The notes beneath the pieces are model-generated. The model saw only the letters and a list, made by a program, of their open reading frames with translations. It was not told where the DNA came from and did not search any database. A stretch of DNA of 64,000 bases, taken from Spartobacteria bacterium (GTDB lineage: Bacteria; Verrucomicrobiota; Verrucomicrobiia; Chthoniobacterales; UBA10450). Below are positions 8,249 to 21,314 of the stretch, piece by piece (position 1 is the first letter of the stretch; each line of letters starts with the position of its first letter). The translations under genes and the position numbers were made by a program. The DNA is taken from NCBI GenBank assembly GCA_003169975.1, contig PNAA01000043.1:1-64000 (forward strand), written 5' to 3'.

Positions 8249-9388
8249 ATGAACGGAAAGAAAGAACGCGTCCTGCTCGGTATGAGCGGCGGGGTCGATT
8301 CCAGCGTCGCCGGCTATTTGCTGCGCGAGAAGGGTTACGACGTCGTCGGCGTGACGATGAAGGTCTGGCCGCAGGATTGTCTCTCGCGCGCCGAGGACAA
8401 GTGCTGCGGTCCGCAGGCCATCGCCGACGCGCGGGGCGTAGCCCACTCGTTAGGCATCCCGCATTACGTGGTCGATGAAGCCGACCAGTTCGAGCGCGTC
8501 GTGATCGATTATTTTTCGAGTGAATACCAGGCCGGCCGGACGCCCAACCCGTGCGTGATGTGCAACGAAAAGCTCAAGTTCGGCAGCCTCTGGGAAAAAG
8601 CGCGCGCTCTCGATTGCGCTTACATCGCGACCGGTCACTACGCCATCATCGAGCACCCTGCCGGGGTCACCGACCCCGGCTACAACGGCACCGATCAGCC
8701 CGGCCGGGCCGTGCTGCGCAAAGGCGCCGACCCGCGCAAGGATCAGTCGTACTTCCTTTTCAGTCTGCGCCAGGCCCAGCTCCGGCATGCGCTCGCGCCG
8801 TTAGGCAAAATGGCGAAGCCGGAAATCCGGGAGATCGCGCGCTCGTTAGGCCTGAAGGTTGCCGAGAAGGTCGACAGCCAGGAAATTTGCTTCGTTCCCG
8901 GCAACGATTACAAGGCGTTCCTTCGTTCCCATCTCGGCGCGACGGAGTTTCATCGCGGCGGTATCTACGATCTTTCCGGCAACTTTCTCGCTGAGCACGA
9001 AGGTATCGAACTGTTCACGATCGGGCAGCGCAAAGGACTCCCCGGCGGTTCGCCGCGTCCGCGTTACGTGGTCGATATCGACCCGGTGAGCAACCGGGTC
9101 TTCGTCGGCGACGCCGAGGATTTGCTGGTCGAGGAATTTGAGATCGACCGAATCAACTGGAGCAGCTGCGCGCCTTCGGATGAACCGCTCGCCGTCACGG
9201 TGAAGATCCGTTACAGCCATCCCGGAGCCGCCGCCACTTTGATCCCGCTGGAGGGCGATCGCGCACTCGTTAGGCTGGAGGAGCCGCAAAAGGCGGTCAC
9301 GCCCGGCCAGGCCGCGGTTTGCTACGAGGGTGACGTCGTGGTCGCCGGCGGCTGGATTTGCCGGCACGCGACGGTCGCGGCGGCCTGA
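8249..9388 (+). CDS. mnmA: tRNA-specific 2-thiouridylase MnmA
   Basis: 379 residues. It uses ATP and persulfide sulfur to make 2-thiouridine at the wobble position of tRNA Glu/Gln/Lys. The PP-loop SGGVDSS is at residues 13-19, the catalytic Cys is in NPCVMCNEKLKF and the persulfide Cys is in SQEICFVPGNDY. Residues about 138-146 (PAGVTDPGYN region) are encoded by a TGTAGC-family palindrome at 8660-8684, inserted in frame between IIEH and RAVLRKG. The family normally has a short loop there. The cysteine desulfurase at 21.3-22.6 kb could supply the sulfur. Three copies of CGTTAGGC read here as SLG or PLG and a fourth in another frame. Confidence 0.95.
   Translation: MNGKKERVLLGMSGGVDSSVAGYLLREKGYDVVGVTMKVWPQDCLSRAEDKCCGPQAIADARGVAHSLGIPHYVVDEADQFERVVIDYFSSEYQAGRTPNPCVMCNEKLKFGSLWEKARALDCAYIATGHYAIIEHPAGVTDPGYNGTDQPGRAVLRKGADPRKDQSYFLFSLRQAQLRHALAPLGKMAKPEIREIARSLGLKVAEKVDSQEICFVPGNDYKAFLRSHLGATEFHRGGIYDLSGNFLAEHEGIELFTIGQRKGLPGGSPRPRYVVDIDPVSNRVFVGDAEDLLVEEFEIDRINWSSCAPSDEPLAVTVKIRYSHPGAAATLIPLEGDRALVRLEEPQKAVTPGQAAVCYEGDVVVAGGWICRHATVAAA
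8660..8684. repeat. TGTAGC-type palindrome inside mnmA
   Basis: Stem CCGGGGTC-acc-GACCCCGG followed by the CTACA edge. It is identical in design to the intergenic elements at 20161 and 26015, but lies in frame within the mnmA coding sequence. Confidence 0.75.
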
Positions 9389-11482: not shown

Positions 11483-12715
11483 CTATTTCAGCTCAAATTC
11501 GCCGCAATCGAAAGCCATCATCTGGTCGAGCCCGGAGACGCGGTATTGCTCGACGACCGCGCCGTCATCCTGAAAGACGTCGGCGGCTTTGCTGCTGGTG
11601 GAATTGATCAGCGCCCGTGAGAGGTTCGGCGTCTCGCTGATCGTGCGGAGCGGCAGACCATCACTCGTGCTCAAGAAGCTGCCATCGGCGTCCAGTCCGA
11701 CGGCCAGATCCACCTTGCCGGGTTGATCGTTCTGCAAAGGATTTGGGAGCAGTGATTGGGTGATTTTTTCCAGCTCGCCGGCCGCGGCGGCGGAGGCCGC
11801 GACCGGCCTGTCGTTCACGAGGGAGAAATTCTGATGCTCGATGATTTTTTTGTCGAACAGGCTCTTCCAGTCGGAAACCGGCCCTTCGGCCGCGTTGCTC
11901 AGGGTGCGGACGAGCGTCAAGCCGCGCAATCGCTGCAGGATGCGGCTTTGCTCCACGAGAAAGATTTTGTCCGACAAAGTCGAAGCCTCGATTCGCTCCG
12001 GCCTTGGATCGTCGCCCACATAGTCAAGCCGGCGCAGCACTTCGTGCTTCTTCGACAATTGTTTGACCTCACGCGATTTGTTCTCGTCGAGAGCGTCCAC
12101 GAACCAGGTCGTGCCGTCTTTGCCCGCCGCGCAATCAATCGCGTGCACGATGTTTGGAGGGGCCGGGACCTGGCTGCAGTGCATCCCTTCGGTCGGGGTG
12201 ACCTCGCGCAGGATGGCGCCGGTTGTTTGATCGCAGATGAACGCCGTCGCTTTTCCTCCGGCCAGCTCCGCGTCGACCCGCAGCTCGCCGTTTTCCATCC
12301 AAAGCTGGGCAAGCCGCCGGATGTGCGGTGATTTTTCGTCCTTTACCCAATCATTGAAAAAATAATCGACGCCCTCGACTTTTAGATCGCCGACAACGTA
12401 ACCGCGCGCGTTGTACTTCCCGTTAGGCAAAGGATGCCCCTCCTCGTCGTTGCCATCCCAATCCGTTTCGAGCGCGTCATTCCCGGCGGTGAAATCGGTG
12501 ACGGCGTCTTCGCGATGGAGAACGCGCACCAGTTTGCCGGCCCCATCGTAAATCCCGAGGCTGATCGTCCCCTCCAACGGGGGCAAAGCGAAACGCAGCG
12601 GCACATTGCGCGGCGGAGGTGAGGGTAACGGTGAGACCGTCGGCGAGGGCGCGGTTAACTGCGCCTGAGTGGAAGCGAGCGCAAAAAGGACGACGAACAG
12701 AAGTGCGATGCGCAT
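11483..12715 (-). CDS. secreted protein with FlgD-type Ig-like domain
   Basis: 410 residues from ATG 12715, which begins a signal peptide (MRIALLFVVLFALASTQAQ). A Pro/Ser-rich linker follows, then a FlgD Ig-like fold at about residues 45-110 with the typical DGNDEEGHPLPNGKY turn. The remaining 300 residues match no family I recognise; they contain WFVDALDENKSREVKQLSKK and look extracytoplasmic and possibly beta-propeller-like. The upstream in-frame ATG at 12757 reads through a repeat element (MAGIGDPGYS) and is rejected. It lies just downstream of the GH57 gene on the same strand and may be co-transcribed, despite the intervening repeat. Confidence 0.7.
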   Translation of the reverse strand: MRIALLFVVLFALASTQAQLTAPSPTVSPLPSPPPRNVPLRFALPPLEGTISLGIYDGAGKLVRVLHREDAVTDFTAGNDALETDWDGNDEEGHPLPNGKYNARGYVVGDLKVEGVDYFFNDWVKDEKSPHIRRLAQLWMENGELRVDAELAGGKATAFICDQTTGAILREVTPTEGMHCSQVPAPPNIVHAIDCAAGKDGTTWFVDALDENKSREVKQLSKKHEVLRRLDYVGDDPRPERIEASTLSDKIFLVEQSRILQRLRGLTLVRTLSNAAEGPVSDWKSLFDKKIIEHQNFSLVNDRPVAASAAAAGELEKITQSLLPNPLQNDQPGKVDLAVGLDADGSFLSTSDGLPLRTISETPNLSRALINSTSSKAADVFQDDGAVVEQYRVSGLDQMMAFDCGEFELK

Positions 12716-12729
12716 GCGGTGAGCGAAGC

Positions 12730-12774
12730 TGTAGCCGGGATCGCCGATCCCGGCCACAACGAAATCCAGCTACA
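12730..12774. repeat. TGTAGC-edged hairpin element
   Basis: Two outward TGTAGC/GCTACA edges and a GGGATCGCCGATCCC stem. It supplies the TAG stop of the GH57 gene (12770-12772). Confidence 0.75.
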
Positions 12775-20165: not shown

Positions 20166-20245
20166 CCCGCCTGAGGCGGAGGCGGGTGACCCCGGTTCGG
20201 GAGTAAGGCTGCGCTGCGAAGCCGGGGTCAGCGACCCCGGCTACA
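20161..20245. repeat. TGTAGC-edged hairpin element
   Basis: TGTAGCC at the left, GGCTACA at the right, with GCCGGGGTCAGCGACCCCGGC as a perfect inner stem. It supplies the stop of the PATR gene and could terminate its transcript. Confidence 0.85.
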
Positions 20246-20307: not shown

Positions 20308-20407
20308 GTAGACGCTTCGCTCTGCGAAGCGCTGGGGAAAGCGTTGCTTGCCGCGTTATCTGTGGGCGGACGCGCAGACTCGCGCCTTCCAGAGGGAGGC
20401 GTCTACA
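20308..20407. repeat. TGTAGACG-edged hairpin element
   Basis: Edges TGTAGACG and CGTCTACA; inner CGCTTCGCTCTGCGAAGCG palindrome and GAGGGAGGCGTC arm. It supplies the TAG stop of prmA (20403-20405). Confidence 0.8.
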
Positions 20408-21212
20408 GTGCGCAGCGAAGCGCGACCCACTTTCCGCGGCGACGTTGTTGCTCAAGGTAAAATTGGGAGTGGCGGAGCGCGCGTACGACTGATGGAGCCT
20501 GCTCGCGCAGGATCCCGGAAACGATGAGGTGGCCCTTGCGGCGGAGGGCGCGACGGAAAATGGGCAAGGCGGCGATGAGCAGCTCGCTGAAGAGGTTCGC
20601 GGTGATGAGTTCGTAGCGCGCGGTTGGTTTCCAGCGCAGGACATCGCCCGCCAGGAACTTTGCCCGGGAGATGTAATTGAGACGCGCGTTTTGCCGCGCG
20701 TGTGCGATGGCGCGGGGATCGTTGTCGAGGCCGAGAACTTCGCTCGCGCCGAATCGTCGGGCGGCGAGAGCCAGAATGCCGGTGCCTGTCCCGGCGTCGA
20801 GCAGGCGCCAGCCGGGCGGAAGTTTTCTCGTCGTTTCCTCGAGCAAGCGCAGGCACATCGCGGTCGTCGCGTGATCGCCAGTTCCGAACGCGCCCGCGGC
20901 CGGAATAACGAGCAGTGGCTGATTGCTCGGAATGGCTTCCGAGACGACCAGCAGGCGTCGGCCGACCCGGATGGGTGCATGGATTTGTGACGGCAGATAT
21001 TCTTGCCGCCAATTGCGCGCCAGAGGTTTTGCAGAGCCTTGGAAATAGCGAATTAAACGCGCGGCCTGCGCGCGGGTGGCGCAGACAATCTGGAGCGAGA
21101 TGTGCGCGCGCCCCGGAACGGAAATCACGGCCGCGCCCGGCGTCGTCGCTGCGAGGAGATGCTCTTTGTTCTCCAGCCAGGCGGGCGTCGCCGTTCGCTC
21201 CCAGAGATACAT
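20403..21212 (-). CDS. prmA: ribosomal protein L11 methyltransferase
   Basis: 269 residues. It trimethylates L11 using S-adenosylmethionine. PrmA hallmarks are AFGTGDHATTAMCL, the SAM loop LLDAGTGTGILALAA, GLDNDPRAIAHARQNAR and ITANLFSELL. The protein is shorter than E. coli PrmA (293), mainly at the N-terminal L11-binding domain. The TAG stop is formed by the adjacent TGTAGACG repeat. It is followed upstream by a palindromic spacer and the cysteine desulfurase, which is co-directional but not tightly linked. Confidence 0.88.
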   Translation of the reverse strand: MYLWERTATPAWLENKEHLLAATTPGAAVISVPGRAHISLQIVCATRAQAARLIRYFQGSAKPLARNWRQEYLPSQIHAPIRVGRRLLVVSEAIPSNQPLLVIPAAGAFGTGDHATTAMCLRLLEETTRKLPPGWRLLDAGTGTGILALAARRFGASEVLGLDNDPRAIAHARQNARLNYISRAKFLAGDVLRWKPTARYELITANLFSELLIAALPIFRRALRRKGHLIVSGILREQAPSVVRALRHSQFYLEQQRRRGKWVALRCAL

Positions 21213-21235
21213 TAGCGCGGCGATCGCGGGCTGTA

Positions 21236-21314
21236 TTCCGGGTAGCGCACGCGTCCCGCGTGCGCTACCCGGAATTGTCCGGCGTGACGTTTTCGGTGCA
21301 AAGCACGCCGGACG
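21236..21314. repeat. palindromic spacer between prmA and cysteine desulfurase
   Basis: Perfect inverted repeat TTCCGGGTAGCGCACGCG and CGCGTGCGCTACCCGGAA, followed by a second pair GTCCGGCGTG...CACGCCGGAC. It fills almost the whole gap and probably forms strong RNA hairpins. Confidence 0.8.

Follow-up and report, generated by a model that had tools for sequence, protein, structure and literature searches.

Background

Several described systems place short palindromic DNA within bacterial genes, and the closest of these are the REPs of the GTAG superfamily, which have stems of 5-13 bp and loops of 2-20 nt (Table 1 in PMC3733652). According to the main text of that survey, intragenic copies are known, with Opitutus terrae, a member of Verrucomicrobia, being the richest (Di Nocera, De Gregorio and Rocco 2013, PMC3733652), and recB of X. 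campestris and X. oryzae carries a REP at about the same site (PMC3733652). In the Stenotrophomonas maltophilia REPtron, as described in the relevant sections of that report, the REP is 23 nt long, with GTAG, an 8-bp perfect stem and a 3-nt loop, and the RAYT cuts it in vitro between C and T (PMC8266576). The classic case of in-frame insertion is that of the Rickettsia palindromic elements (RPE; Ogata 2000, 2002, as cited in PMC10969869), whereas IStrons, in the sections of PMC4227781 that deal with them, are transposase-bearing elements rendered harmless within genes by self-splicing via a group I intron.

Here we describe a hairpin inserted in mnmA in the window, by which we mean the whole 64,000-nucleotide stretch of DNA that was analyzed. 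The mnmA REP shares with the GTAG-superfamily REPs, including those of O. terrae, the GTAG foot, the short stem, the link to RAYT, and the existence of intragenic copies, many of them inverted dimers (PMC3733652); the mnmA copy in the window is itself single. The sections of that paper drawn on here do not name mnmA as a REP host, and its single recB case is exceeded here, with two loops in one gene reused by several families (PMC3733652). The likeness to group 3 of the S. maltophilia REPtron (GTAG, a perfect stem, a 3-nt loop, and a cognate RAYT) is one of architecture, whereas in that system cleavage was demonstrated (PMC8266576, in the sections cited). Like the mnmA REP, RPEs are palindromic repeats that lie in frame in unrelated genes, but they encode an ORF and are about 150 bp long (PMC10969869, as summarized there), compared to about 25 nt for the mnmA element; a Rickettsia-type element is ruled out by this size, given the 39-nt insertion and its 25-nt conserved core. 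Because intragenic REPs are already known, the mnmA insert alone extends a familiar theme, and the less expected part of the story is the presence, in the same genome and its relatives, of whole RAYT units in frame within housekeeping genes, of which we found no report in the open-licence papers searched. These units resemble IStrons in that a transposase-bearing element within a gene is made harmless, but differ from them in leaving the frame open rather than splicing (PMC4227781, same sections).

A REP hairpin in mnmA

The host gene and the parts of the insert are as follows.

8249-9388, plus strand: mnmA, tRNA 2-thiouridine(34) synthase, 379 aa, unbroken frame
8660-8698, minus strand: 39-nt insertion (13 codons, AGVTDPGYNGTDQ) relative to the mnmA of the closest relative, a single gap against L101
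8660-8680, minus strand: REP hairpin, perfect 9-bp stem, 3-nt loop
8680-8684, minus strand: REP foot, TGTAG, which reads CTACA on the plus strand
8684-8698, minus strand: non-palindromic extra of about 14-15 nt, AACGGCACCGATCAG on the plus strand, acquired together with the REP or adjacent to it, within the 39-nt gap and not conserved in other copies
9161-9199, plus strand: site B, a second MnmA loop after RINW, short in the window gene

The frame scores 411 bits with NF001138 and 324 bits with TIGR00420 (NCBIfam), both above the cut-off, and its PDB matches are the MnmA structures 9hln, 2hma, and 2der. The preliminary description had placed at 8660-8684 a hairpin core encoding PAGVTDPGY in MnmA, and both the position and the reading are borne out: the plus strand is GCCGGGGTC-ACC-GACCCCGGC-TACA and encodes this peptide in frame, between IIEH and RAVLRKG, with the palindrome itself reading AGVTDPGY. 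On the minus strand, the element is TGTAG-CCGGGGTC-GGT-GACCCCGG-C, so that a GTAG stands unpaired at one end of the palindrome (TGTAG, minus strand 8684-8680), with the stem of 9 bp and loop of 3 nt falling within the dimensions of the superfamily; in the mnmA copy, the outermost pair of the stem can be formed with the last G of the foot. The single-stranded DNA folds with an energy of -11.9 kcal/mol (z-score -3.5). The foot is recognized by its sequence, its retention in the copies elsewhere in the same genome, and the enrichment of such feet next to hairpins in the window. The mnmA element is thus a solitary GTAG-type REP, in which a TGTAG foot adjoins a perfect palindrome of 8-9 bp with a loop of 3 nt.

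The insertion and the empty site

To define the site, we used 81 MnmA proteins, namely, that of the window and those from 80 named loci of Chthoniobacterales and relatives (the best 80 of 321 relatives). The insert lies after GHYAIIEH, at what we call site A, and the distance from GHY to KDQS across this site is exactly 19 residues in 68 of the 81 proteins, 20 in one, and 24-44 in 12, with 32 in the window protein. The short loop that had been postulated for the family is therefore the prevailing form, and it is present also in the three closest relatives (L101, L102, and L103), where site A is empty; a loop of equal length but unlike sequence in most MnmA proteins, which would have spoken against an insertion, is not what the alignment contains. 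Alignment to the DNA of L101 opens a single, clean gap of 39 nt, spanning 8660-8698, and the tree groups the window mnmA with L101 at a support of 100/92 and with L101-L103 together at 100/98. Judged from the alignment and the tree, the 39-bp insert is a clean lineage-specific insertion that occurred in the lineage of the window after its split from the closest sampled relatives. The conserved part of the insert amounts to 25 nt, and among the compared copies from the same genome, none pointed to a consensus extending past the TGTAG-stem-loop-stem unit; the exact borders of the insert are not explained by the consensus element.

In a structure model of the window MnmA (36 sequences, mean pLDDT 78.6), site A is predicted to be a loop that joins strands 133-135 and 155-157 and has a pLDDT below 50 at residues 139-150, and site B is similarly predicted to lie between strands 294-303 and 314-320. 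We propose that the mnmA copy survived because the insertion totals 39 nt and lands in a disordered, residue-tolerant surface loop. The unbroken frame and the conserved motifs suggest that such inserts leave the host gene unbroken, and MnmA with the insert presumably stays active.

The REP family across genomes

The hairpin belongs to a repeat family with many dispersed copies. The 4.47-Mb genome that contains the window has 22 sites with the 19-base core and 38 with the 27-base form, the latter allowing up to three mismatches, and zero matches to the reversed control in either case. The 25-base footed form, with up to one mismatch, is found 37 times in the forward and 47 times in the reverse direction, more than in any other of the 58 genomes searched; it is present in 27 of these genomes, 26 of which belong to the family of the window (37 genomes), and its reversed control has no matches in any of the 58. 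Two further copies lie within the window.

12731-12757, plus strand: second copy of the mnmA REP family, situated shortly upstream of where the minus-strand ORF 11486-12769 probably starts
20218-20244, minus strand: third window copy of the family, with no convincing ORF around it

Across the window, hairpins follow 16 of the 157 TGTA and 13 of the 240 GTAG tetramers, compared to a median of 0.4% over all tetramers. Other hairpins in the window combine the TGTAG foot with different stems, which implies that several such families coexist.

Seven of the 38 copies in this genome look intragenic, as judged from 15 candidate frames that were translated, 10 of which were scanned for protein families. 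Five of the seven are read in the AGVxDPG frame, in mnmA, proS (L017), an error-prone DNA polymerase (L070), an ABC-F ATPase (L074), and an M1 aminopeptidase (L079); the PGSxTPA frame is used in an E1-beta/lipoyl protein (L068) and in a 341-aa frame (L063) for which the family scan gave no match. The third, arginine-rich frame is used by none of the seven. Three copies (L013, L016, and the window copy at 12731) fall where a frame is extended at its 5' end and probably precede its true start, and for the remaining copies, no convincing gene was found around them. Because the 21-nt palindrome comprises seven codons and is symmetric, both orientations read AGVxDPG in the same frame, and this sequence would form a small, turn-forming peptide. 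Inverted dimers (REPIN/BIME) also occur in the family, at L064, L071, and L072 and in the MnmA of L124 and L142.

The RAYT link

Among the matches listed, RAYT genes adjoin inverted copies of exactly the mnmA REP family in three relatives, L262, L255, and L270; the gene in L262 has an open frame and lies between two REP copies, whereas those in L255 and L270 contain one in-frame TAG each. In the assembly that contains the window (97.3% complete), a search for a RAYT with the CCGGGGTC REP on its flanks found none; the two nearest matches to the cognate RAYT are 47% and 50% identical to it, one of them flanked by other REP families and the other without a GTAG hairpin within 500 bp. It appears most likely that a RAYT (TnpA-REP, an HUH/Y1 single-strand transposase) cut a single strand carrying the REP and joined it into mnmA; that a RAYT moved this copy is the best inference from the family and its linkage in relatives, and no junction bounded by a C-T cut could be proved at the mnmA insert.

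Two RAYT loci in the same genome deserve mention. One is a small RAYT relative (L256, C36:13729-14121) with a 229-aa frame, 50% identical to the RAYT of L262 and with no GTAG hairpins within 500 bp. The other is a free-standing RAYT of 157 aa (L057, C18:55547-58867) with six flanking GTAG hairpins of the CGTCGCCC and CGCTTCGC stem families, which are other than that of the mnmA REP; the CGCTTCGC stem is also found in the window hairpins at 20308 and 50215.

Recurrent insertion in two loops of MnmA

The mnmA insert of the window is not an isolated event. When the 81 mnmA genes were scored against the REP consensus over 22 informative positions, site A of the window matched at 22 of 22, scores of 17-22 were reached by eight rows of the alignment at site A and by 12 rows at site B, and the maximum outside both loops was 16. 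Inserts of any kind are present at site A in 12 and at site B in 27 of the 81 rows. All 25 REP copies in this set (16 rows) are confined to the two loops and share one frame. The tree, in which 25 of the 78 inner branches are open, requires at least eight changes of state at site A and at least 13 at site B, counts that pool gains with losses and also take in outgroup rows lengthened by non-REP sequence (L158, L161, L176, and L177, among others). A single shared ancestral insertion as the source of all MnmA inserts is ruled out by their differing sites, orientations, lengths, and families and is, likewise, incompatible with these numbers of changes.

Site B accommodates elements of three kinds in the relatives: the mnmA-type CCGGG REP; a TGTAGAG-GCGGCTG-tccc-CAGCCGC REP in L151 and L153, of a family found on the flanks of RAYT genes in L266 and L267; and, in L133, L136, L138, L145, L152, and L155, an inverted-repeat element, TGGAGGGCGGAGCTCC, which is repeated in seven of the 58 genomes, with up to eight copies (control, 0) and none in the genome of the window. 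The earlier proposal that two unrelated element families enter coding sequences thus holds insofar as more than one family does so, in MnmA site B of relatives; two of the three families there share the GTAG foot. That different elements enter one loop suggests that site B is permissive and argues against a targeted sequence. In the mnmA of Chthoniobacter flavus (L161), site B contains CCTTCGACTTCGCTCAGGGCAGG in frame, which resembles another short repeat.

Taken at face value, the repeated strikes on two loops, with at least eight and at least 13 changes and the same frame in 25 of 25 copies, might indicate that the loops are targeted on purpose or that the AGVxDPG spacer is useful, altering the activity or partner binding of MnmA, and is kept by selection; Di Nocera and colleagues, in the sections cited here, likewise suspected that the presence of REPs in replication and repair genes is non-fortuitous (PMC3733652). 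We consider this scenario improbable: the same loops hold different families as well as non-REP lengthenings (L158, L161, and L176), the insert sequences decay, and site A is empty in 68 of the 81 genes, so that tolerance suffices. Slightly less probable still is the possibility that the hairpin exerts an effect as RNA or DNA, through pausing, mRNA stability, or a gyrase site, with the peptide being incidental. Such roles have been proposed for extragenic REPs (PMC3733652), and the RNA of 8640-8710 folds into a strong hairpin at -29.7 kcal/mol, with the element as the main stem, but the z-score of this fold is just -1.7, and the hairpin is missing from most relatives at site A. That the palindrome arose by chance, in a loop that is naturally variable and belongs to a G+C-rich gene, for which one might invoke the few non-REP length variants at site A (L168 and L176), is practically refuted by the complete match to a genome-wide repeat family with zero background in 58 genomes and by the lower maximum score elsewhere in the 81 genes.

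We are therefore highly confident that a solitary GTAG-type REP was inserted in mnmA, most likely via a RAYT, and is tolerated as a short spacer in a loop; the element would represent selfish DNA and no designed domain. The mnmA insert offers a clean natural experiment, in which a selfish hairpin is read as protein at a place where a conserved enzyme tolerates insertion, and the two reused loops make the distinction between an "insertion hot loop" and a "permissive loop" testable.

RAYT units in frame within housekeeping genes

The genome that contains the window has 11 matches to Y1_Tnp (PF01797), two of which lie in frame within long housekeeping frames, those of RecG and CarB.

L059, C23:134854-138012: complete RAYT unit with long terminal inverted repeats in carB, in a frame of 1380 aa, in frame
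L058, C5:347994-350720: RAYT unit in recG, 909 aa, in frame, with an inverted pair of GTAG REPs

The Y1_Tnp scores of the whole frames, 22.4 bits for RecG and 20.7 bits for CarB, are just below the Pfam cut-off of 23, and those from the genome search are 26.1 and 24.4 bits, respectively. Two GGGTAGC-GCACGCG-tct-CGCGTGC REPs in inverted orientation border the recG unit, and a palindrome at 21235-21275 in the window has a stem of the same family. A match runs uninterrupted through the CarB unit in at least 14 and through the RecG unit in at least 18 of the 58 genomes, some of which belong to other families; elsewhere, the unit is absent and the host match falls into separate parts. In 12 aligned loci per host (L181-L192 for CarB and L193-L204 for RecG), the transposase core comprises 178 residues in all 12 CarB and 133-135 residues in all 12 RecG proteins. 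The CarB core retains both the HxH (HVH) and the Y..NP motifs in 12 of 12, and the RecG core retains HxH in 10 and Y..NP in 11 of 12. Where finite, dN/dS for the core is about 0.05-0.21, values made rough by the saturation of dS in many pairs. By MnmA, the closest relative is G002; its RecG is 83% identical and the transposase only 55%, with a different RAYT in the same recG site, from which it follows that the occupant of the site can change.

Another 20 stretches (L205-L224), picked for a RAYT match in a long open frame, so that their hosts do not amount to a rate, add MetH (7, with units at two sites in relatives), AlaS (4), ValS (3), TsaC/Sua5 (2), and ThrS, ClpB, and CarB (one each), with one stretch (L207) having no identified host; L219 and L222 were named by reading, and L222 also by its CarB match. 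Most of the host models match as two stretches flanking the transposase. The sources of the in-frame units are mostly assembled metagenomes, and independent ones agree.

On balance, we favor, with some reservation, the view that the REP/RAYT elements of Chthoniobacterales have adopted an in-frame lifestyle, in which REP hairpins, along with mostly catalytically intact RAYT units with terminal repeats in CarB, RecG, AlaS, MetH, ValS, ThrS, ClpB, and TsaC/Sua5, would be translated as internal domains, at sites fixed across genera and under purifying selection, much like inteins that never splice. If these are true fusions, they would exemplify a transposon lifestyle that shields the transposase, its loss by frameshift or deletion being costly to the host, and might account for the "unexpectedly long" Y1 proteins that, according to its relevant sections, a survey of the RAYT/Y1 family discarded as fusions or annotation errors (PMC6006769).

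Other repeats in the window

The 21235-21275 region contains a perfect palindrome of 19 bp with GTAGCGCACGCG; a PrmA-like frame (20406-21314, minus strand) has its N-terminal end nearby. The 8-mers CGTTAGGC and TCGTTAGG are over-represented in the window, with 40 and 35 copies, respectively, on both strands together, compared to 2.5 and 1.7 expected from base composition. Such 8-mers occur window-wide, for example, at 8447, 8843, and 9267 in mnmA and at 1463 and 19407, and GTTAGGC is found four times inside mnmA alone; the excess of CGTTAGGC and TCGTTAGG possibly reflects an uptake-like or other genome-wide signal.
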